21,386 bases of DNA, from positions 1 to 21,386 of the forward strand of contig VGYW01000099.1 of the NCBI GenBank assembly GCA_016872875.1, written 5' to 3'. The stretch is from Planctomycetota bacterium. Its GTDB lineage: Bacteria; Planctomycetota; PUPC01; DSUN01. The notes under the pieces were generated by a model. The model saw only the letters and a program-made list of their open reading frames with translations, made no database searches and was not told the origin of the DNA. The position numbers and the translations under genes were made by a program. Every line of letters begins with the position of its first letter. The first letter of the stretch is position 1. Positions 3,558-21,019 of this stretch are shown here, one piece after another.

Positions 3558-3586
3558 TTGACAGCCTGCCTCAGCTTCGCTATGCT
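3558..3586 (+). promoter_or_regulatory. Sigma-70 promoter for the kinase/activator operon
   Basis: A perfect -35 TTGACA (3558-3563) is followed after exactly 17 bp by TATGCT (3581-3586; four of six consensus bases). The predicted start of transcription is near 3593. The in-frame ATG at 3582 lies inside the -10 box and so could not be on this transcript. That argues for the GTG at 3639 as the kinase start. Confidence 0.65.
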
Positions 3587-3638
3587 GTCGGCTGTCAGTG
3601 GCAGGCTACGTTCCGGGCCGCAAGAGGGCAGTCCTGCC

Positions 3639-5708
3639 GTGTCCCCGCTCCGCAACCAGGCCCTGGAGTTCTGCCTCATCGCGCTCGAGCGCGGCCTCGT
3701 GCCGCCCGAGCGGCGCGAGCAGGCCCGCGCCCTCGTCGAATCAGCTTCCCTCGACGCCTCAGACCCCCAGGTGCTCGTCGAGCAGGGCATCCTCACCCAG
3801 GACCAGCTCGACAAACTCCTGGAGGAAACTAAGGTCGGTGGCCCTGGTGAAGTCGTTCCCCCTGGCGCCGCAACGGCGGCACCGGTGTTCCCCCGCCCAT
3901 TCGGAGAGGACTTCGAGCTTCAGGCCCTCATCGGCGAGGGGGGCATGGGACAGGTCTTCAAAGCCTGGCAGAAAAGCCTCCGCCGCCACGTAGCCCTCAA
4001 GGTCATGCGGCCAACCGCCGTCGTGAGCGAGGAACTCCTCAAGCGCTTCCAGCTCGAGGCCCAGGCCGCCGCAAGGCTCCACCATCCCAACATCGTCCCC
4101 GTCTACCAGGCCGACACCCACGACGGCCAGTTCTTCTTCACGATGGAGCTTGTGGACGGCTTGCCCCTGAGCAAGCTCATCAAGGAGGGCAAGCTCACCC
4201 TCAAGCAATCCCTCGAACTCATCGAGAAGGTCGCCCGAGCCGTCCACCACGCCCACACCCAGGGCATCATCCACCGCGACATCAAGCCTGGCAACATCCT
4301 CGTTGACGCCGCCGGCGAGCCCCACGTCACCGACTTCGGCCTCGCCAAGGACCTCCAGACCGACTTCGGCCTCTCGATGTCCCACGCCGCGATGGGCACC
4401 CCCTCCTACATGTCCCCCGAGCAGGCCCAGGGCCGCTCGGCCGAAGCCGACGCCCGGAGCGACGTCTACTCCCTCGGAGCAACCATCTACGAGCTCCTCG
4501 TGGGTCGGCCACCCTTCCAAGCCGATAGTAGCGTCAAGTTGTTGCGCATGGTGGTAGAGGACGATCCGACGCCGCCGCGGCGCATAAGCAAAGGCCTGCC
4601 GCGCGACGTCGAGACGATCTGCCTCAAGTGCTTGCGGAAGGAACAGGAGCGCCGCTATAGCACCGCGGAGGAACTGGCCGACGACCTTCGCCGCTACGCG
4701 AATGGGGAGCCGATCACCGCGCGTCCAGCCTCCGCGGCCTATCTTGTGGGGAAACGGCTGGAGCGGCACAAAGGCATCCTGAGTATTGCGGCTGTGGCGC
4801 TGCTCGTGATCATCGCCCTCGTATGGTTCCTGGTGGGCTCACTTGGAGGTCCGCTTTCCGCGGTCCAGATCAGTGGTGGGACAGCCATACAAGCTTTGGA
4901 CGCAAAGGGGCGAAAGCTCTGGATTCGGGATATGGGAACAGAGATCGGCCCTGTGAAGCTCATGACAGCCAGGGATGGGCATGCCAGGGTGGTGGCCGGC
5001 CTGAAAGGGACGGCTCCCGTTGCTGGCGATGTCGTGATGTTCGATGAAGGCGGGAGAGAACTGTGGCGGTTCCGTTCGGGCACCACGTCTCCGTACACCG
5101 CAAACCGCCCGTTAACCATGGTGGTCAGCGACATGCTGATTGCGGACCTGCTTCCCGAGCCGGGACAGGAGATTGTGGTCACGGCGCTGGCGGAGTGGTT
5201 TCCCGCCCGTGCTTGCATCCTGGGCGAGGAGGGCAAGCTCCTCCGCAATCTCTGGCACCCGGGCGGGCTGGGCAACGTGCTTCGCCTAGGGGACTCGGAC
5301 CGCCTCGTGTTCTGGGGCTCCAACAATAACCTGGACGGGACGAGTCTGGGTGGTCGCTCCGGTAAGCTGTTTTACGCGCTCTTCTGCGTGACAGCAGACA
5401 ACGTGGCGGGGCAGTGCCCTCCGCACAACGCGAAGGCATTGGCACATACCAAGGCCCTGTGGTACAAGGCATGTATGCCGCAGGGAACGGGGTACGAGAA
5501 GGTGTCCTACAGGAATGGGCAGATCGAGGTTTGGACCACGCGCGGGTATGTGCTATATCTCGATGCAGACGGGAACATCCTCAGCGAGGGCCGCAGCGAA
5601 GGCTTCAAGCCGCCGGCCCCAACCCTCGTAGACGTCCTTGCGGCACTCAAGCAAGAAGGCTCTCAGGATGGACCACCGCGCGCGGGGGCCGCAAAGGAGG
5701 GAAGATGA
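3639..5708 (+). CDS. Membrane serine/threonine protein kinase (Hanks type)
   Basis: 689 residues from GTG 3639 (GAGGG at 3624-3628); ATG 3582 was rejected because it overlaps the -10 box. Residues 1-90 are a helical leader. The kinase domain spans about 92-355: glycine loop GEGGMGQVF (99-107), ATP-binding Lys121 (VALKVM), catalytic IHRDIKPGN (211-219), metal-binding DFGLA (232-236), and activation/P+1 region MGTPSYMSPEQ. The Arg before the catalytic Asp marks it as an RD kinase. One transmembrane helix lies at about 380-402. The remaining 290 or so residues would be outside the cytoplasm; repeated beta-strand patterns (IQALDAKGRKLWIRD, VMFDEGGRELWRF) suggest a PQQ/beta-propeller-like sensor. 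Its TGA overlaps the ATG of the sigma-54 activator (ATGA), so the kinase probably controls that regulator. Confidence 0.93.
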   Translation: MSPLRNQALEFCLIALERGLVPPERREQARALVESASLDASDPQVLVEQGILTQDQLDKLLEETKVGGPGEVVPPGAATAAPVFPRPFGEDFELQALIGEGGMGQVFKAWQKSLRRHVALKVMRPTAVVSEELLKRFQLEAQAAARLHHPNIVPVYQADTHDGQFFFTMELVDGLPLSKLIKEGKLTLKQSLELIEKVARAVHHAHTQGIIHRDIKPGNILVDAAGEPHVTDFGLAKDLQTDFGLSMSHAAMGTPSYMSPEQAQGRSAEADARSDVYSLGATIYELLVGRPPFQADSSVKLLRMVVEDDPTPPRRISKGLPRDVETICLKCLRKEQERRYSTAEELADDLRRYANGEPITARPASAAYLVGKRLERHKGILSIAAVALLVIIALVWFLVGSLGGPLSAVQISGGTAIQALDAKGRKLWIRDMGTEIGPVKLMTARDGHARVVAGLKGTAPVAGDVVMFDEGGRELWRFRSGTTSPYTANRPLTMVVSDMLIADLLPEPGQEIVVTALAEWFPARACILGEEGKLLRNLWHPGGLGNVLRLGDSDRLVFWGSNNNLDGTSLGGRSGKLFYALFCVTADNVAGQCPPHNAKALAHTKALWYKACMPQGTGYEKVSYRNGQIEVWTTRGYVLYLDADGNILSEGRSEGFKPPAPTLVDVLAALKQEGSQDGPPRAGAAKEGR

Positions 5709-6712
5709 CGAGGCGCGCGGACATCGACGCCCTCACTCCGTCCGTCCTCTACTGCGAGGGGCGGATCGTTTTTGATGATCTATGGAGCACGAACCGGGCC
5801 GTGAAGAAGTGCCTTGACAAAGCCAGGCTAGTGGCGGGGCATGAGATTGATGTGCTGGTGTTGGGGGAGTCGGGGACGGGGAAGAATCTGCTGGCGCAGG
5901 CGATTCATAATGGGAGCCCGAGGGCGGGGAAGGCGTTCGTGGCGGTGAATGTGGCGGCGATCCCGGAATCGCTGCTTGAGGCGGAGCTTTTCGGTTGCGT
6001 GAAGGGGGCGTTCACGGGGGCAGAGGACCGGAAGGGCTACTTCGAGCAAGCTCACGGCGGGACGCTGTTCCTGGATGAGATCGGGAATCTGAGCCTGAGC
6101 TGTCAGGCTAAGATACTGACGGCGGTGGAGGCGAAGCGGATACGCCGGCTGGGGGCGCAGAAGGATACGGCGTGCGACATTCGGCTGATCGCGGCGACGA
6201 ATGCCGACTTCAAGGCCGCCGTGGCCGAGGGGCGCTTCCGCGAAGACCTGCTTCACCGGCTCAATCGCCTGCCAATCACCCTCCCGCCGCTGAGGGCGCG
6301 TGCCGAGGACATTCAGCCCCTGGCCGAGCGCTTCGTGGAGCAGGCGAACGCGAAGTACGGACGCAATGTGAAGGGGATAGCGCAGGACTGCCTTGCACGG
6401 ATGCTCGACTATCCGTGGCCCGGCAATCTGCGGGAGCTGCGGTCGAGGGTTGACGCCGCGGTCGCCCTCTGCCTGGGCGAGGAGCTTGGCATTGGCGACG
6501 TGTTCCCCGAACTCGCGGACGAGCCTACGCACGTGACCCAACCGGGCATGGAGCTTGCCCTTGAGACGATGGAGCGTCGGCATATTCTGAAGGTGTTGAG
6601 GACGACGGGTTGGAACATCACGCGTGCGGCGGAGCTTCTTCACATCTCCCGCCCCACCCTCTATGAGAAGATCAGCAGATATGGCCTGGAACGACCCTCT
6701 CAGACGCACTGA
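5705..6712 (+). CDS. Sigma-54-dependent transcriptional activator (AAA+ and Fis HTH)
   Basis: 335 residues from ATG 5705, with an excellent AAAGGAGGG ribosome site and ATGA overlap with the kinase. The AAA+ domain has Walker A GESGTGKN (54-61), the sigma-54-contacting GAFTGA loop intact (101-106), Walker B GGTLFLDE (118-125), the sensor-I region AATN, Arg fingers in FREDLLHRLN, and WPGNLREL (238-245). A Fis-type helix-turn-helix is at 306-327 (AAELLHISRPTLYEKISRYG). Only about 45 residues precede the AAA+ core, so there is no receiver, GAF or PAS domain. Input must come from another protein, most simply the coupled kinase. Known activators of this class remodel sigma-54 polymerase by ATP hydrolysis from upstream sites. 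Candidate sites and a -24/-12 promoter lie immediately downstream. Confidence 0.95.
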   Translation: MTRRADIDALTPSVLYCEGRIVFDDLWSTNRAVKKCLDKARLVAGHEIDVLVLGESGTGKNLLAQAIHNGSPRAGKAFVAVNVAAIPESLLEAELFGCVKGAFTGAEDRKGYFEQAHGGTLFLDEIGNLSLSCQAKILTAVEAKRIRRLGAQKDTACDIRLIAATNADFKAAVAEGRFREDLLHRLNRLPITLPPLRARAEDIQPLAERFVEQANAKYGRNVKGIAQDCLARMLDYPWPGNLRELRSRVDAAVALCLGEELGIGDVFPELADEPTHVTQPGMELALETMERRHILKVLRTTGWNITRAAELLHISRPTLYEKISRYGLERPSQTH

Positions 6713-6734
6713 GGGTACGGGCGCGCCCCGGGGC

Positions 6735-6788
6735 GTAAGTTTCCCTAACGGTCCCCGAGGACGCCAGTAAGCTCTCCTAACGGCCCCC
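6735..6788 (+). promoter_or_regulatory. Two direct repeats, candidate activator-binding (UAS) sites
   Basis: Copy 1 (6735-6756) and copy 2 (6767-6788) match at 18 of 22 positions and are 32 bp apart, close to three helical turns. The shared core is GTAAGYTYYCCTAACGG followed by a C-rich end. They lie about 142-195 bp upstream of the predicted sigma-54 start site and directly after the activator gene, the usual distance for enhancer sites. Binding by the 5705-6712 protein is inferred. Confidence 0.6.
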
Positions 6789-6902
6789 TAAGCCTTCTTC
6801 TGGGCCACCGAGCGCTCCGCGCGCATTCGGCCTGTCCATAACTCATCATTGCGTATTGACTTATGAGGTGCTGCCTGACCGCACAACCGGTAGCGGCAGC
6901 GG

Positions 6903-6919
6903 TTGGCATGGCCGTTGCT
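6903..6919 (+). promoter_or_regulatory. Sigma-54 (-24/-12) promoter
   Basis: TTGGCATGGCCGTTGCT matches the sigma-54 consensus TTGGCAYG-N4-TTGCW. The invariant GG (6905-6906) and GC (6917-6918) are exactly 12 bp apart. Transcription would start near 6930, giving a leader of about 130 nt before ATG 7060. The next gene upstream is itself a sigma-54 activator. Confidence 0.85.
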
Positions 6920-6970
6920 CTAAGTGACCCGTGAAAGGACGAGGAAGCTCATCCAGCACCCCGGCTCACG

Positions 6971-6991
6971 AAAGGAGGCCCACAGATGTGA
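6971..6991 (+). promoter_or_regulatory. Strong Shine-Dalgarno with ATG-TGA start-stop in the leader
   Basis: AAAGGAGG (6971-6978) is followed seven bases later by ATG (6986-6988) and at once by TGA (6989-6991). The overlapping GTG at 6988 is in frame with the exported protein and could be an alternative start adding 24 residues before the signal peptide. The leader may thus hold a start-stop regulatory element or the true initiation site; sequence alone does not decide. Confidence 0.45.
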
Positions 6992-7059
6992 ACGGATCCC
7001 TCTCCACGTGTCATCCGTACTTCTCGTCTGGGCTTCGGTTCTCAGGAAAGGGTAGAGTG

Positions 7060-8994
7060 ATGAACGCCAGCAGGTCGTGCGTGTTGCGTCTTGCCATCGC
7101 CGCGCTGATGGCGGCAGTTCTCTTCGGTCAGGTCGCCCTCGGCAATACCGCGCTGACCAGCGGCCGGTCGGTCTTGGGCTCCGTGCCGGCCGGCAGCTTC
7201 GTCTACTACTACATCACTGTCCCAGCGAACAGCCCCCGCCTCGACATCACCCTGACCGCAAACAGCGGCGACCCGGACCTGTATGCGCGGCTCGGGGGTC
7301 GCCCGACCACGTCTCTGTACGGCTATCGGTCCTGGGCGACTGGGTCCGATAGCCTCTCGATCTCCGGCCCGGCGAGCGGCACCTGGTACATCGGAGTGCG
7401 TGGTTACTCCGCGGCCTCGTACCAGTTGCGGGTGACGGTGGTCACGCCACCGCCTGTCCCTCCAACGCCGCCGCCCCCGCCGAACGACATCCCGCTCACC
7501 AGCGGCCAGGTGGTCTCCGGTTCGGTGGCACGGCAAGCCTTCGCCTACTACACCATCAGTGTTCCGAGCGGGGCGAGCCGGCTCGACGTGGTCCTGACCG
7601 CGACCAGCGGTGACCCCGACCTGTACATCCGCCGCGGAAGCCGGCCCACCACCTCGTCCTATGATCGGTCTGCCACCGCCGGAGGCTCGGACAGCGTATC
7701 CATCACCAACCCTCTCTCTGGCACCTGGTACATCGGCGTGTACGGCTATTCTGCGGCGTCGTACCAGTTGCGGGCGACCATTGTCACGGCAACGCCTGTT
7801 CCCCCAACGCCGCCGCCCCCACCGAGCGACATCCCCCTGACAAGCGGCCAGGCTGTGTCTGGATCGGTGGCCCGGCAGGCATTCACCTACTACACCATAC
7901 CTGTTCCGAGCGGGGCCAGCCGGCTCGACGTGGTCCTGACTGCGAACAGCGGTGACCCCGACCTGTACATCCGTCGCGGAAGCCGGCCCACCACCTCGTC
8001 CTATGATCGGTCTGCCACCGCTGGCGGCTCGGACACCCTTTCGATCACGGGCCCGGCCGCCGGCACCTGGTACATCGGGGTGTACGGCTACTCGACAGCC
8101 TCTTACAGGCTCTCCGCAATGGTGATCCTCGCCGGGACAGCGACTTCGCGTGAGGGCAGCGTGACCCGTTACGATGGCGTTCCCCTCTCGGATGTCATCG
8201 TCAGCTTCACCGACGGGTCCTGGGACCTCAGCGAGGGCGGCTCGTTCCTCATTCCGCCGCGGGCTTCGGTGGCTCGTCTGGCGGCCAACCATTGGGGGTT
8301 CAAGCGCGCCGACAGCACCGGGACACGCTTCCAGGGTGCTTACGCAAAGAACGTCCTGTTCCAGCAGGCATCGTTCGACCTGGTCTCGCTTGTCCGGCTC
8401 ATCCCATTCATCGGCCAGACCGTCGGGACCGCTATTGATGCTGTCGTGAACGTTGATGTCGGTGCCAGGTTCTACGAGGACCTCGACGACCTTGCCCTCC
8501 AGACACAAGACGGGAGAGAGCCCGGAGGGCCTTGGATGACCTTCTGGGCAGTGGGCTACGTGGAGGCCAGCGCGGGGCTAGGGTTCAGGCCCGACAGCTT
8601 CCTGCCCGTCGGCACACAGGTAGGCGCAGCGGTGATGCTCGCCAAGGAGGCCAATCACGACCCGAACATGCAGTTCGACGCCTCCTGGTCAGCTTTCCAG
8701 TCCTCGGTCCTCGGTCTCACGATTGCTGAGATCGGCCCTGAGGTCCAGTTCCGCTCTGGCGAGATTCTCTGCTCCGCTGCGTTGGGTGCAGAGCTTCTGA
8801 GGGCGAACCTGATCACCGGCACTCTCCAGACCCCATCGCTGAAGAGGGAAGTGCGCCTGCCGGCGGGTCTCTCGCAGAGCAGCGCAAACTCGCGCCTGGC
8901 CTGGATCGCCCTCCGCAGCCTGCTCCCGCCTCCCCTTTCTTGGGTCGCGGGTGATCTCCCTGTCCGCGCAGCCACGAACCCCGTGCCAGACTGA
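7060..8994 (+). CDS. Secreted protein with three PPC domains and a novel C-terminus
   Basis: 644 residues from ATG 7060 (AGGAAAGGG at 7044-7052); GTG 6988 is possible. A signal peptide (LAIAALMAAVLFGQVALG) is followed by three tandem pre-peptidase C-terminal (PPC) domains of 114 residues each, at about 29-142, 143-256 and 257-357. Each has LTSG..V.GSV, YYxIxVP, LTAxSGDPDLYxR, and SGTWYIGVxGYS. Pro-rich linkers (PPTPPPPP) separate them. PPC domains usually hang on secreted proteases, but no protease domain is visible here. Residues 358-644 are unrecognised; they contain a hydrophobic stretch (LVRLIPFIGQTVGTAIDAVV) and a beta-rich segment (VEASAGLGFRPDSF) that could be membrane-active or barrel-like. 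It follows the sigma-54 promoter, so it is the likely target of the upstream activator. A 14-bp-stem hairpin follows the gene. Confidence 0.88.
   Translation: MNASRSCVLRLAIAALMAAVLFGQVALGNTALTSGRSVLGSVPAGSFVYYYITVPANSPRLDITLTANSGDPDLYARLGGRPTTSLYGYRSWATGSDSLSISGPASGTWYIGVRGYSAASYQLRVTVVTPPPVPPTPPPPPNDIPLTSGQVVSGSVARQAFAYYTISVPSGASRLDVVLTATSGDPDLYIRRGSRPTTSSYDRSATAGGSDSVSITNPLSGTWYIGVYGYSAASYQLRATIVTATPVPPTPPPPPSDIPLTSGQAVSGSVARQAFTYYTIPVPSGASRLDVVLTANSGDPDLYIRRGSRPTTSSYDRSATAGGSDTLSITGPAAGTWYIGVYGYSTASYRLSAMVILAGTATSREGSVTRYDGVPLSDVIVSFTDGSWDLSEGGSFLIPPRASVARLAANHWGFKRADSTGTRFQGAYAKNVLFQQASFDLVSLVRLIPFIGQTVGTAIDAVVNVDVGARFYEDLDDLALQTQDGREPGGPWMTFWAVGYVEASAGLGFRPDSFLPVGTQVGAAVMLAKEANHDPNMQFDASWSAFQSSVLGLTIAEIGPEVQFRSGEILCSAALGAELLRANLITGTLQTPSLKREVRLPAGLSQSSANSRLAWIALRSLLPPPLSWVAGDLPVRAATNPVPD
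7144..8130 (+). repeat. Three tandem 342-bp coding repeats (PPC units)
   Basis: Units begin at 7144, 7486 and 7828, an exact 342-bp (114-codon) period; the third lacks the linker. Units 2 and 3 are nearly identical over long stretches at the DNA level (for example CGGCTCGACGTGGTCCTGAC and the following GACCTGTACATCCG regions), while unit 1 is clearly diverged. This implies that units 2 and 3 arose by a later duplication or are kept alike by gene conversion. Confidence 0.9.
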
Positions 8995-10640: not shown

Positions 10641-10832
10641 CGCGTTTCTCCCGAAACGCGGGAAATCCGAAATGCCAAATCCGAAATCCGAAGGAATCTG
10701 GAAGCCCAAAACACGAATTCTCCAAACTCCAGAACGAAGAACCCTCTGGAGGTCTCCCTCCTGGTTGTTTTGGGTTTTGGGCTTGGGAGTTCGGATTTCT
10801 TTCGGATTTCGGGTTTCGGATTTCGGGCTTGG
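10641..10832. repeat. Dispersed CCGAAATCC fold-back repeat with palindrome (copy 2)
   Basis: It starts three bases after the phosphoesterase stop with CGCGTTTC-TCCC-GAAACGCG (10641-10660), then GGGAAATCC and several CCGAAATCC/CCAAATCC units. The right end (10782-10832) carries the inverse units (TTCGGATTTC, GGGTTTCGGATTTCGGGC), so the whole element can fold back on itself around a central CCCTCTGGAGG region. It relates to the repeat at 37-123. It probably supplies no promoter itself, and LarA begins 33 bp after it. Confidence 0.75.
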
Positions 10833-12485: not shown

Positions 12486-12511
12486 ACAGGTGAAATGAAG
12501 GAGCCGCGGTG

Positions 12512-12835
12512 ATGAGGGAATGCTCAGAAGAGCTTCTTGGCGAGATCGCGCGGAGGCTGACCGCTGCCCTGCACCCGAGCCGCGTCTATCTGTTTGGCTC
12601 CCAGGCGCGCGGCGACGCCGACGGCGACAGCGACCTGGACCTCCTTGTCGTCGTGCCCGACACCGACACCCCACCTCGCGAGCTTGCCCGCCTCGGCCGC
12701 AAGAGCCTCTGGGGCATGTGCATTCCCGTGGATATCGTGGTCTGCACCGACTCCGAGTTGGCCAAGTGGTCCCAGGTGCGCTGCAACGTCATTCACACGG
12801 CAGTGGAGAAGGGGAGGCTTCTCTTTGCATCCTGA
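12512..12835 (+). CDS. MNT-type minimal nucleotidyltransferase
   Basis: 107 residues from ATG 12512, with AAGGAG eight bases upstream; GTG 12509 is an in-frame alternative. The polymerase-beta-like signature YLFGSQARGDADGDSDLDLL has the two metal-binding Asp (DLDLL) and the GS..RG nucleotide loop. A third acidic residue is likely Asp in VDIVV. Minimal nucleotidyltransferases of this size commonly pair with HEPN toxins and inactivate them by adding AMP. No HEPN gene is present; instead an AlbA_2-domain gene begins 24 bp downstream. Whether it acts as an antitoxin or modifies another target is unknown. Confidence 0.88.
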   Translation: MRECSEELLGEIARRLTAALHPSRVYLFGSQARGDADGDSDLDLLVVVPDTDTPPRELARLGRKSLWGMCIPVDIVVCTDSELAKWSQVRCNVIHTAVEKGRLLFAS

Positions 12836-12859
12836 TCGGGAGATGTTGCTGGAGTCGCT

Positions 12860-14152
12860 ATGGATTGGGAGAAGATAATTCGGAGCGGCTTCGAATCCAA
12901 GGAACTTGACTATAAGCAAGCATGTTCTTGGGACGAGAATAACAGGAAAGCCTGTTGTGCTCTGGTAAAAGACATCCTTGCCATGGCAAACACCAAGGGT
13001 GGCCGGCTGGTTGTCGGCGTTAGCGAAGGGCCAAAGGGATTCAGTTACGATGGTTTGACACATGAGCAGGCTGCGACTTTCGAGACATCCAGGGTGAACC
13101 GCTTCCTTAACCGGTACGCCGATCCACCCATCAACACTGTGGTTCACAGACCGGAACTGGACGGGAAGACGTTTGTGGTCATCGAAGTGCCGGTGTTTCA
13201 CGACACCCCGCACATCTGCCAGAAGGACTACACGGAGACACTGGAAGCTCCATGCATCTACGTGAGGACAGACAACAACGAGTCAGCGCCGCTGAAGACC
13301 AGCGCCGACTTCCGCGGCATCGTGGAGCATGCCATACGAAACAGGGGGGACCAACTGCTGACCTCGTTCAGGGCCATCCTCATGCACGGGGACCGGCCGC
13401 GAGAGGAGACGGGTACGGAGCTATTCCAGGCGCAGATAAAGGCGGGCTCAAAGCGCTGCGCCGAACTGTGGCCCCTCGCGAAGCGTCGATACCCATATCG
13501 CGAGACGGCCACGTTCCCTGCGCATTTTGAGCCTGCAAGGTTCCCGCTGAACATGCTGTACGAGATGGCGCGCCGCGCGAGCGTCAATTTCCGTGGGTGG
13601 CCATTCCTGTATATTAATGAACGCAACAGGGAAATGACCTACAACATTGATGACGGCGTCGAGACGTATGTCCCTAATGTGCTGCACTTCTGGCAACTGC
13701 GACAGTCAGGCATCTTGTACACGCAGCAGGAGTACCGCGAAAAAAGCGGAGACGGCACAGAGCCGATACTGGACCTGGATAGCTTCCCCCAGCTTGCGTG
13801 CGAGGCTGTCTACACCCTCACGCGGCTGTATGAGGGAGTCATGGACGGTTCGGACGGTGTTTGCCTCAGGTTCTGCCTGCATCAAGTGCAAGACGTCCCT
13901 TTTGGGTCGTCCAACCCGTACCGAGCCCTTGGAAGAGGGTATCCACCCAACCCGCCGGCATGCCGAATCCCTTCGATACGGTATGAAGTCTCGCGCGCCC
14001 TCGCGGAATGGCGAGCCGGCATCATCGACCACGCACTTGATCTCTGCGGTCATGTGTTCGATCGTTTCAACATTTCGGATACTGGAGAATGGAGCGGGGC
14101 ATTGCCAGAGGCCCGCAAGCTCATAGAAGAGATGCTAGCGAAGAGACGATAG
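12860..14152 (+). CDS. Schlafen/AlbA_2-domain protein with unrecognised C-terminus
   Basis: 430 residues from ATG 12860 (GGAG six to seven bases upstream). Residues about 10-150 look like the Schlafen AlbA_2 fold: ESKELDYKQACSW, then LVKDILAMANTKGGRLVVGV, then FVVIEVPVFHDTPHICQKD and IYVRTDNNESAP. This domain is found in transcription regulators and in many defence-associated proteins. Residues about 160-430 have no family I recognise; they are rich in Arg, aromatic and acidic residues, without a Walker motif or a transmembrane helix. Base composition looks lower in GC than the neighbours, especially near the start (AAGATAATTCGG), hinting at transfer. It forms an operon with the nucleotidyltransferase. 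A role in anti-phage defence is inference from context. Confidence 0.78.
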   Translation: MDWEKIIRSGFESKELDYKQACSWDENNRKACCALVKDILAMANTKGGRLVVGVSEGPKGFSYDGLTHEQAATFETSRVNRFLNRYADPPINTVVHRPELDGKTFVVIEVPVFHDTPHICQKDYTETLEAPCIYVRTDNNESAPLKTSADFRGIVEHAIRNRGDQLLTSFRAILMHGDRPREETGTELFQAQIKAGSKRCAELWPLAKRRYPYRETATFPAHFEPARFPLNMLYEMARRASVNFRGWPFLYINERNREMTYNIDDGVETYVPNVLHFWQLRQSGILYTQQEYREKSGDGTEPILDLDSFPQLACEAVYTLTRLYEGVMDGSDGVCLRFCLHQVQDVPFGSSNPYRALGRGYPPNPPACRIPSIRYEVSRALAEWRAGIIDHALDLCGHVFDRFNISDTGEWSGALPEARKLIEEMLAKRR

Positions 14153-17889: not shown

Positions 17890-18016
17890 GCGGCCAGTGG
17901 CCGCAACCAAAGGGGATGATTGGATGGTTGGATGGATGGATGATTGTCTGACAGCCATCCACCCATCCATTCATCCATTCATCCATTCATCCATTCATCC
18001 ATTCATCCATTCATCC
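17890..18016. repeat. Dispersed CATCCATT minisatellite element, copy B (6 units)
   Basis: GCGGCC-AGT-GGCCGC (17890-17904) and AACC open the element. GGATG-type units follow, then the core GGATGATTGTCTGACA shared with copy A, CCATCCACC, and six perfect ATCCATTC units plus ATCC (17965-18016). Copy A (9764-9857) has two units. It occupies most of the space between the helical-repeat protein (ends 18055) and the toroid protein (starts 17873). Confidence 0.88.
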
Positions 18017-20353: not shown

Positions 20354-20977
20354 CTACGGCAGTTCCTTGAGCTCGATGTCCTTGAACCAGACCTTCATCT
20401 TTGCGCCGACGTGGAGCTGAAGGGCGATGATGCCCTCCTTCGCCCCCTTGTCGCTCTTCTCCGTGTAGTCCACGGTGGTCACGCCGTTGAGCTCGAGCTT
20501 GATCTTCGGGCCGTCGCACGTGATCACGTACTGGTTCCAGTCGCCCTTCTTGACGGCCTCGGCGACCTTCTTGGGGTCAACGTCGGCCAGGATTCCGCGG
20601 CCGCCCTCCTCGTAGAGGATGCCGGTGTAGCGCGACTCCGCGATGTCGGGCTGGTAGCCCCTCACCACGTAGTCGTCGGATTGCTTGCTGCGCACCTGGA
20701 CGCCGGAGTTGCCGTTGCGGAGCTTGAACTTCGCCCTGAGGATGAAGTTCTTGTAGCTCTTCGCCGTGGAGAGGAAGCTGTTGCGCTTGATCTGCTTCTC
20801 GTCGGTGGAGCCGGCGATGGCGCCGTCCTCCACCTTCCAGAGCTCGGGGTCGCCGTTCCAGCCCTCGAGGGTCTTGCCATCGAAGAGCGGCTTGAAGCCC
20901 TCCTCGCCCTCCCCCGCCGCCGCCAGGCCGCAAAGGGCCAACGCCACACACACCGCGAGGTTCAGCTTGCGCACCAT
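20354..20977 (-). CDS. Exported DUF1080 (3-keto-disaccharide hydrolase-like) protein
   Basis: 207 residues from ATG 20977, with GGAGG four bases upstream (short spacing; GTG 20974 would give seven). A signal peptide (LNLAVCVALALCGLAAAGEG) precedes the DUF1080 core: EGFKPLFDGKTLEGWNGD, LWKVEDGAIAGSTDE, SYKNFILRAKFKLRNGNSGV, GWx-like DYVVRGYQPDIAE, GDWNQYVITCDGPKIKLELN and IALQLHVGAKMKVWFKDIEL. It is a concanavalin-like beta sandwich. Family members include 3-ketoglucoside hydrolases that work with Gfo/Idh/MocA sugar dehydrogenases; here such an oxidoreductase lies 17 kb away, so partnership is speculative. It has its own promoter at 21020-21048. Confidence 0.93.
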   Translation of the reverse strand: MVRKLNLAVCVALALCGLAAAGEGEEGFKPLFDGKTLEGWNGDPELWKVEDGAIAGSTDEKQIKRNSFLSTAKSYKNFILRAKFKLRNGNSGVQVRSKQSDDYVVRGYQPDIAESRYTGILYEEGGRGILADVDPKKVAEAVKKGDWNQYVITCDGPKIKLELNGVTTVDYTEKSDKGAKEGIIALQLHVGAKMKVWFKDIELKELP

Positions 20978-21019
20978 CGAGCCTCCAAACAAGGGGACTG
21001 CCTCTGCCCACTGCGGGCG

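Follow-up and report, generated by a model that had tools for sequence, protein, structure and literature searches.

A candidate sigma-54 switch with a propeller-sensor Ser/Thr kinase, an activator lacking an input domain and a three-PPC exoprotein gene in a planctomycete

The window is a stretch of 21,386 nucleotides from a Planctomycetota bacterium (GCA_016872875.1, contig VGYW01000099.1). Its plus strand carries, in order, a sigma-70-like promoter, a kinase gene (3639-5708), an activator gene (5705-6712), a gap of 347 bp and the gene of a predicted secreted protein (about 7060-8994). The features are as follows.

3558..3586, plus strand: sigma-70-like promoter with TTGACA-N17-TATGCT, upstream of the kinase gene (pattern match only)
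3639..5708, plus strand: membrane Ser/Thr kinase coding sequence, 689 aa, GTG start, TGA end at 5708 (Pfam Pkinase, 2.8e-50)
3915..4676, plus strand: kinase domain (Pfam, residues 112-365 of the open reading frame 3582-5705)
4773..4844, plus strand: presumed transmembrane stretch (hydrophobic run, by reading)
4848..5648, plus strand: presumed extracytoplasmic beta-propeller sensor (AF2 model, pLDDT 88; Foldseek and VIA propeller matches)
5705..5708, plus strand: ATGA start/stop overlap of kinase and activator genes (read directly)
5705..6712, plus strand: sigma-54 activator of the GKN clade, 335 aa, lacking an input domain (Pfam, relatives, tree)
5735..5752, plus strand: candidate phosphorylation site TPSVLY in the N-terminal tail, matching [ST]x[ST]xx[YF] (comparison of clade with controls)
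5864..5887, plus strand: Walker A motif GESGTGKN, with GKN in place of GKE (alignment reading)
6005..6022, plus strand: GAFTGA loop (read directly)
6560..6682, plus strand: Fis-type helix-turn-helix, HTH (Pfam HTH_8, 2.6e-14)
6735..6756, plus strand: first copy of the direct repeat, a candidate site for the activator at about -195 to -174 relative to the predicted start
6767..6788, plus strand: second copy of the direct repeat, a candidate site for the activator at about -163 to -142 relative to the predicted start
6904..6919, plus strand: -24/-12 sigma-54 promoter core TGGCATGGCCGTTGCT, exact match to TGGCAYG-N4-TTGCW, predicted start site near 6930
7060..8994, plus strand: predicted secreted protein whose N-terminus, by reading, resembles a signal peptide, with three PPC domains and a C-terminal part of 300 aa; start at about 7060

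These parts and their order are read directly from the DNA, and each of those named in the initial annotation is present: the kinase, the ATGA overlap, the activator, the repeats, the -24/-12 core and the three-PPC gene. Its placing of the locus start at 3558 has to be corrected, as this base belongs to the -35 box of the sigma-70-like promoter and the kinase gene starts at the GTG at 3639. The possible propeller sensor is now backed by an AF2 model together with Foldseek and VIA matches, Pfam and motif reading agree on an activator with an intact GAFTGA loop and no input domain, and the direct repeats and exact core reported 3' of the activator both lie in the 347-bp gap.

The kinase has a matching database entry which is also 689 aa long. 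Its kinase domain and outer domain, along with catalytic motifs and a membrane stretch recognised by reading only, place it among the Hanks-type Ser/Thr receptor kinases, and an outer domain modelled as a beta-propeller would make it a propeller-sensor kinase of the PknD-like kind. Two named families were tried and fell below their NCBIfam cutoffs, with essentially the kinase domain alone matched in each case: PASTA kinase (NF033483, 312.4 bits against 450) and AfsK (NF053615, 112.3 bits against 1300). Relatives of the sensor are P0123, P0124, L143 and L144; the protein database search with the sensor returned two relatives, both without a kinase. Across 392 genomes of the phylum, the sensor search gave two loci only, L141/L143, at which there is no kinase match, and L142/L144, at which kinase and sensor occur together and the 4.5-kb contig holds no activator match. 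In L143 (G162:C103, 1114-4600) the propeller sensor domain of the window stands without a kinase, behind what reads as an ECF-like sigma factor gene. By this reading, the sensor domain appears to be common to different output systems.

The activator combines a sigma-54 AAA+ domain bearing GAFTGA with an HTH and no input domain, the arrangement of the type Ic, or domain-less, activators. Pfam finds within its 335 aa neither the receiver domain of the two-component NtrC class nor the FHA domain of FHA-type kinase-linked activators. The PspF structure 2vii matches it at 6e-47; identity with PspF itself was rejected, the TIGR02974 score being 236.8 bits against a cutoff of 443.55. A protein search returned seven relatives at 54-82% identity, followed mostly by receiver-type activators at 50% or less (best 120 matches listed). 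The closest, P0002-P0005, are 60-82% identical, and some near relatives have altered loops: EAFTEA in P0008, GAYTDA in P0004 and GAFTDA in P0005.

A profile, A3, built from 15 members and cut at 420 bits recovered at least 34 such sequences in at least 31 of 392 Planctomycetota genomes, with five candidates scored per genome; the first sequence below this set scored 405 bits among the matches listed. In a quick tree of 41 sequences, 34 clade members split from seven outgroup activators with an SH-aLRT value of 95, the window activator grouping with P0002, then with P0003-P0005, then with L119/P0008, P0006 and P0007. By profile and tree, the activator is a member of a Planctomycetota clade of domain-less activators, most of which have GKN in Walker A. 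For the comparison of neighbourhoods 36 clade loci were used, namely 31 of the 34 profile matches together with L120, L184 and L186-L188; the short-flank matches G239, G267 and G049 were left out, as were, from all counts, the GKE-type short activators L183, L185, L189 and L190, whose loci have no kinase match. Walker A reads GKN in 31/36 of the loci, GKT in L177 and L182, GKE in L137 and L178, and GKD in L179. The GTGKN codon pattern gave 23 matches in 15 genomes. Seven new ones were examined and rejected as clade members: five have no activator match, and the other two are activators made longer by an extension at the N-terminus, so that no further clade member was gained. Surveys at order and class level likewise gave no GKN member beyond those already found.

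The N-terminal tail of these activators carries [ST]x[ST]xx[YF] exactly 43 residues before Walker A in 33/41 clade sequences and in 0/39 controls. To the 36 loci the clade set adds five database relatives, the window being counted in; P0002 and P0006 were too short for it. Among the controls L259 was dropped as too short, and L270, whose Walker match is doubtful, was kept. With the 12 TITSAY sequences removed, the count is 21/29. All four members with a 4-bp kinase/activator overlap, the window included, have the tail (TPS, TLS, SIS, SVS), and the full motif is absent from the kinase-adjacent L182 and L187. It is a putative phosphorylation site through which a kinase might control the activator. 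The 12 TITSAY members retain the motif without an adjacent kinase, and since members without a kinase neighbour carry the tail too, it may be structural instead.

Overlaps of 4 bp between kinase and activator genes occur in three other genomes, as ATGA in L139 and, if GTG is the start, as GTGA in L136 and L138. Together with L187, whose kinase lies about 160 bp upstream of the activator, and L182, whose kinase lies downstream of a GKT-type activator, they make up the 5/36 clade loci with a same-strand kinase within 200 bp of the activator. A partial kinase is found about 700 bp upstream of the activator in L119. Among control activators of the same survey an adjacent kinase was found in 3/40 (Fisher p = 0.47), and a kinase within 5 kb in 8/40, compared with 7/36 clade loci (p = 1.0). 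All three kinase-adjacent controls (L240, L246 and L253) are FHA-GAF activators, FHA being present in 16/40 controls according to a profile built on four pieces of this domain. Non-FHA controls have an adjacent kinase in 0/24 cases, giving p = 0.077 against the 5/36 clade loci and p = 0.022 against 5/23 after the post hoc removal of 13 loci of one clade. The other 31/36 clade loci are without an adjacent kinase, some, such as L174 and L188, being cut upstream by contig ends. Kinase adjacency was thus dropped as a hallmark of the clade, the enrichment (5/36 against 3/40) not being significant. The pairing of kinase and activator nevertheless recurs, and similar pairs in other planctomycetes make a kinase-activator link at this locus plausible.

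Propellers recur as well: the L139 and L187 kinases bear propellers of FG-GAP type, and a PQQ-type propeller protein is encoded directly after the activator in L180. A single open reading frame of about 1610 aa in L061 (Planctomycetota isolate UWMA-0329, 4041-8870) joins a Ser/Thr kinase to a sigma-54 activator domain. It belongs to a set of 80 loci in which L064 has a distant kinase on the opposite strand and the rest have no kinase match in their flanks. By reading, clade activators also lie directly downstream of a PTS enzyme I (ptsI)-like gene in two genomes (L181, L182), near kinase, FHA and PEGA genes in L119 (G147), and near SUMF1-like and DnaK genes in L120 (G147).

The three PPC domains of the exoprotein give rise to a 342-bp repeat with 85% matches (7377-8093); a database search with its C-terminal 300 aa returned only the protein itself, and the AF2 model of this part has a pLDDT of 31. 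Elsewhere in the window, an Acido-Lenti-1 RNA (RF01687; 21099-21144, minus strand; 37.7 bits, gathering threshold 37) lies upstream of a DUF1080 gene for a 3-keto-disaccharide hydrolase (20357-20992), a nucleotidyltransferase gene adjoins a Schlafen AlbA_2 gene (12509-14152), and short tandem repeats are formed by 7.6 copies of CATCCATT (17956-18016) and two copies of TTTCGGATTTCGGG (10800-10827).

The initial annotation had set out beforehand, as grounds for rejecting its regulatory reading, homologous loci in which the PPC gene and the -24/-12 box are not kept beside the activator, and this is the situation in the relatives compared, which are distant (at most 54% identical). Matches to the PPC domains and to the sensor were found in 0/36 clade loci, and the exact kinase, activator and PPC trio is thus absent from these loci. 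Genes after the activator vary between clade loci. Scanning of 24 of the 36 loci (265 kb) gave six -24/-12 cores with at most one mismatch, and a co-directional core within 500 bp after the activator in 2/24, L131 and L188; the three 4-bp-overlap loci have no such close core. A box after the activator was accordingly dropped as a general trait of the clade. By reading, the next long open reading frame in L188 encodes a signalling protein of GAF type and no exoprotein. In L131 the gene of an FHA protein with a HATPase domain precedes that of a GKN activator; about 85 bp beyond the latter stands a -24/-12 core with one mismatch, followed by what read as prepilin-type genes, all in one direction. 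What stands of the regulatory reading is therefore the propeller kinase, the recurring 4-bp overlaps and the parallel in L131; trio conservation and kinase enrichment do not.

The reading we prefer, at a probability of roughly 0.45, is that the locus forms a one-locus switch from outside the cell to a gene. A propeller outside the membrane would sense a signal and control how active the Ser/Thr kinase is in the cytoplasm, a kinase which the ATGA overlap in the sequence may allow to be made in step with the activator. The kinase would then alter the activator, most likely by phosphorylating the N-terminal Ser/Thr tail, or by holding the activator; such kinase control we infer. Bound to the pair of 22-nt repeats, which lie some 140-195 bp ahead of the predicted start, the type Ic activator would drive RNA polymerase-sigma54 from the -24/-12 promoter, leading to a three-PPC protein that is presumably secreted. 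Counting for this switch are the domains, the propeller, the core with its repeats, the 4-bp overlaps, the FG-GAP and PQQ propellers, the gene order of L131 and the distribution of the tail. Counting against it are the lack of enrichment of kinase adjacency, the tails without a kinase, the absence of PPC and sensor matches from clade loci, the scarcity of boxes, the altered GAFTGA loops of relatives, and an exoprotein C-terminus without relatives.

PspF/HrpR-type activators are controlled by partner proteins or by dose. Input-domain-less activators such as PspF and HrpR form type Ic, according to the classification given in part of PMC3162934, and with a sigma-70-like promoter at 3558-3586 the sigma-54 unit might work without the kinase, through the dose of activator made from the operon's promoter, the kinase acting on other targets such as FHA proteins elsewhere. 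Kinase adjacency that is not significantly enriched, and missing from most clade loci, agrees with this account; the 4-bp overlaps in the window and three other genomes, and a Ser/Thr tail missing from controls, argue against it, and we consider it somewhat unlikely. It is quite improbable that box and repeats are real and that the exoprotein is one member of a regulon, or a recently acquired target, with the conserved function of the clade lying elsewhere. The exoprotein's C-terminal domain without relatives, the 0/36 PPC count and the differing genes after the activator point that way, against which stand the closeness of repeats, box and gene and the parallel order in L131.

The promoter core is of the form GG-N10-GC and near consensus, and exact cores are expected 0.017 times per simulated window. 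The two copies of the 22-nt repeat unit match at 18/22 positions, a level matched in 0/300 simulations of the 188-bp region, and their distance from the predicted start site is usual for such activator sites. A looser 24-nt consensus score was reached in 150/300 whole simulated windows, and four other sites in the window score 13-14 against 14 for the promoter, one of them tying with it; the evidence for the candidate promoter therefore lies in the exact core and its position, not in the window-wide score. Despite these window-wide figures, a chance match, with the exoprotein transcribed otherwise, is very improbable, as the exact core is rightly placed, the looser score was reached in only 13/5000 simulated intergenic plus strands and a sigma-54 activator gene lies directly upstream.

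Sigma-54 activators are often understood as acting downstream of a histidine kinase or of an input domain for small molecules. A clade without input domain but with a conserved Ser/Thr tail, its genes sometimes overlapped by that of a propeller-sensor kinase, would offer a compact test of direct Ser/Thr-kinase switching of sigma-54 transcription, in a phylum, the Planctomycetota, with few genetic models. Among the papers listed by literature searches, no title or abstract opening describes a planctomycete Ser/Thr kinase that targets a domain-less sigma-54 activator. Domain-less type Ic activators, as treated in part of PMC3162934, and propeller kinases are already known; as far as our searches reach, the novelty lies in finding kinase overlap, GKN clade and conserved tail together. 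A general planctomycete 'one-kinase, one-activator' sigma-54 pathway, in which propeller Ser/Thr kinases would directly switch this input-domain-free clade by tail phosphorylation, a peptide of 40 residues replacing a receiver, GAF or FHA module, is an unlikely extension.

The AfsK C-terminus is propeller-like and afsS adjoins afsR. In the AfsK-AfsR-AfsS system of Streptomyces, as outlined in part of PMC10936776, AfsK phosphorylates AfsR, which drives afsS. As here, a Ser/Thr kinase gene is clustered with the gene of an activator with an ATPase domain, although AfsR belongs to the SARP activators rather than to the sigma-54 class, and two genes separate the kinase and activator genes. The same part of that source gives AfsR phosphorylation little effect on activation, which is a warning for the present model. 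In Mycobacterium tuberculosis, according to part of PMC4601284, PknD phosphorylates Thr2 in the N-terminal tail of Rv0516c; there too a Ser/Thr kinase with a beta-propeller sensor alters sigma-factor-dependent transcription through the N-terminal tail of a regulator, albeit a predicted anti-anti-sigma factor of the SigF pathway with no sigma-54 activator involved. The FHA-GAF sigma-54 activators L240, L246 and L253 of the surveyed planctomycete genomes likewise have a kinase gene beside the activator gene, but possess FHA and GAF input domains, neither of which occurs in the window activator. With PspF, HrpR and LafK, the type Ic examples in part of PMC3162934, the window activator shares an activator domain without a signal-recognition domain, and it differs from them in its GKN Walker A motif, its conserved N-terminal tail and the kinase gene next door.
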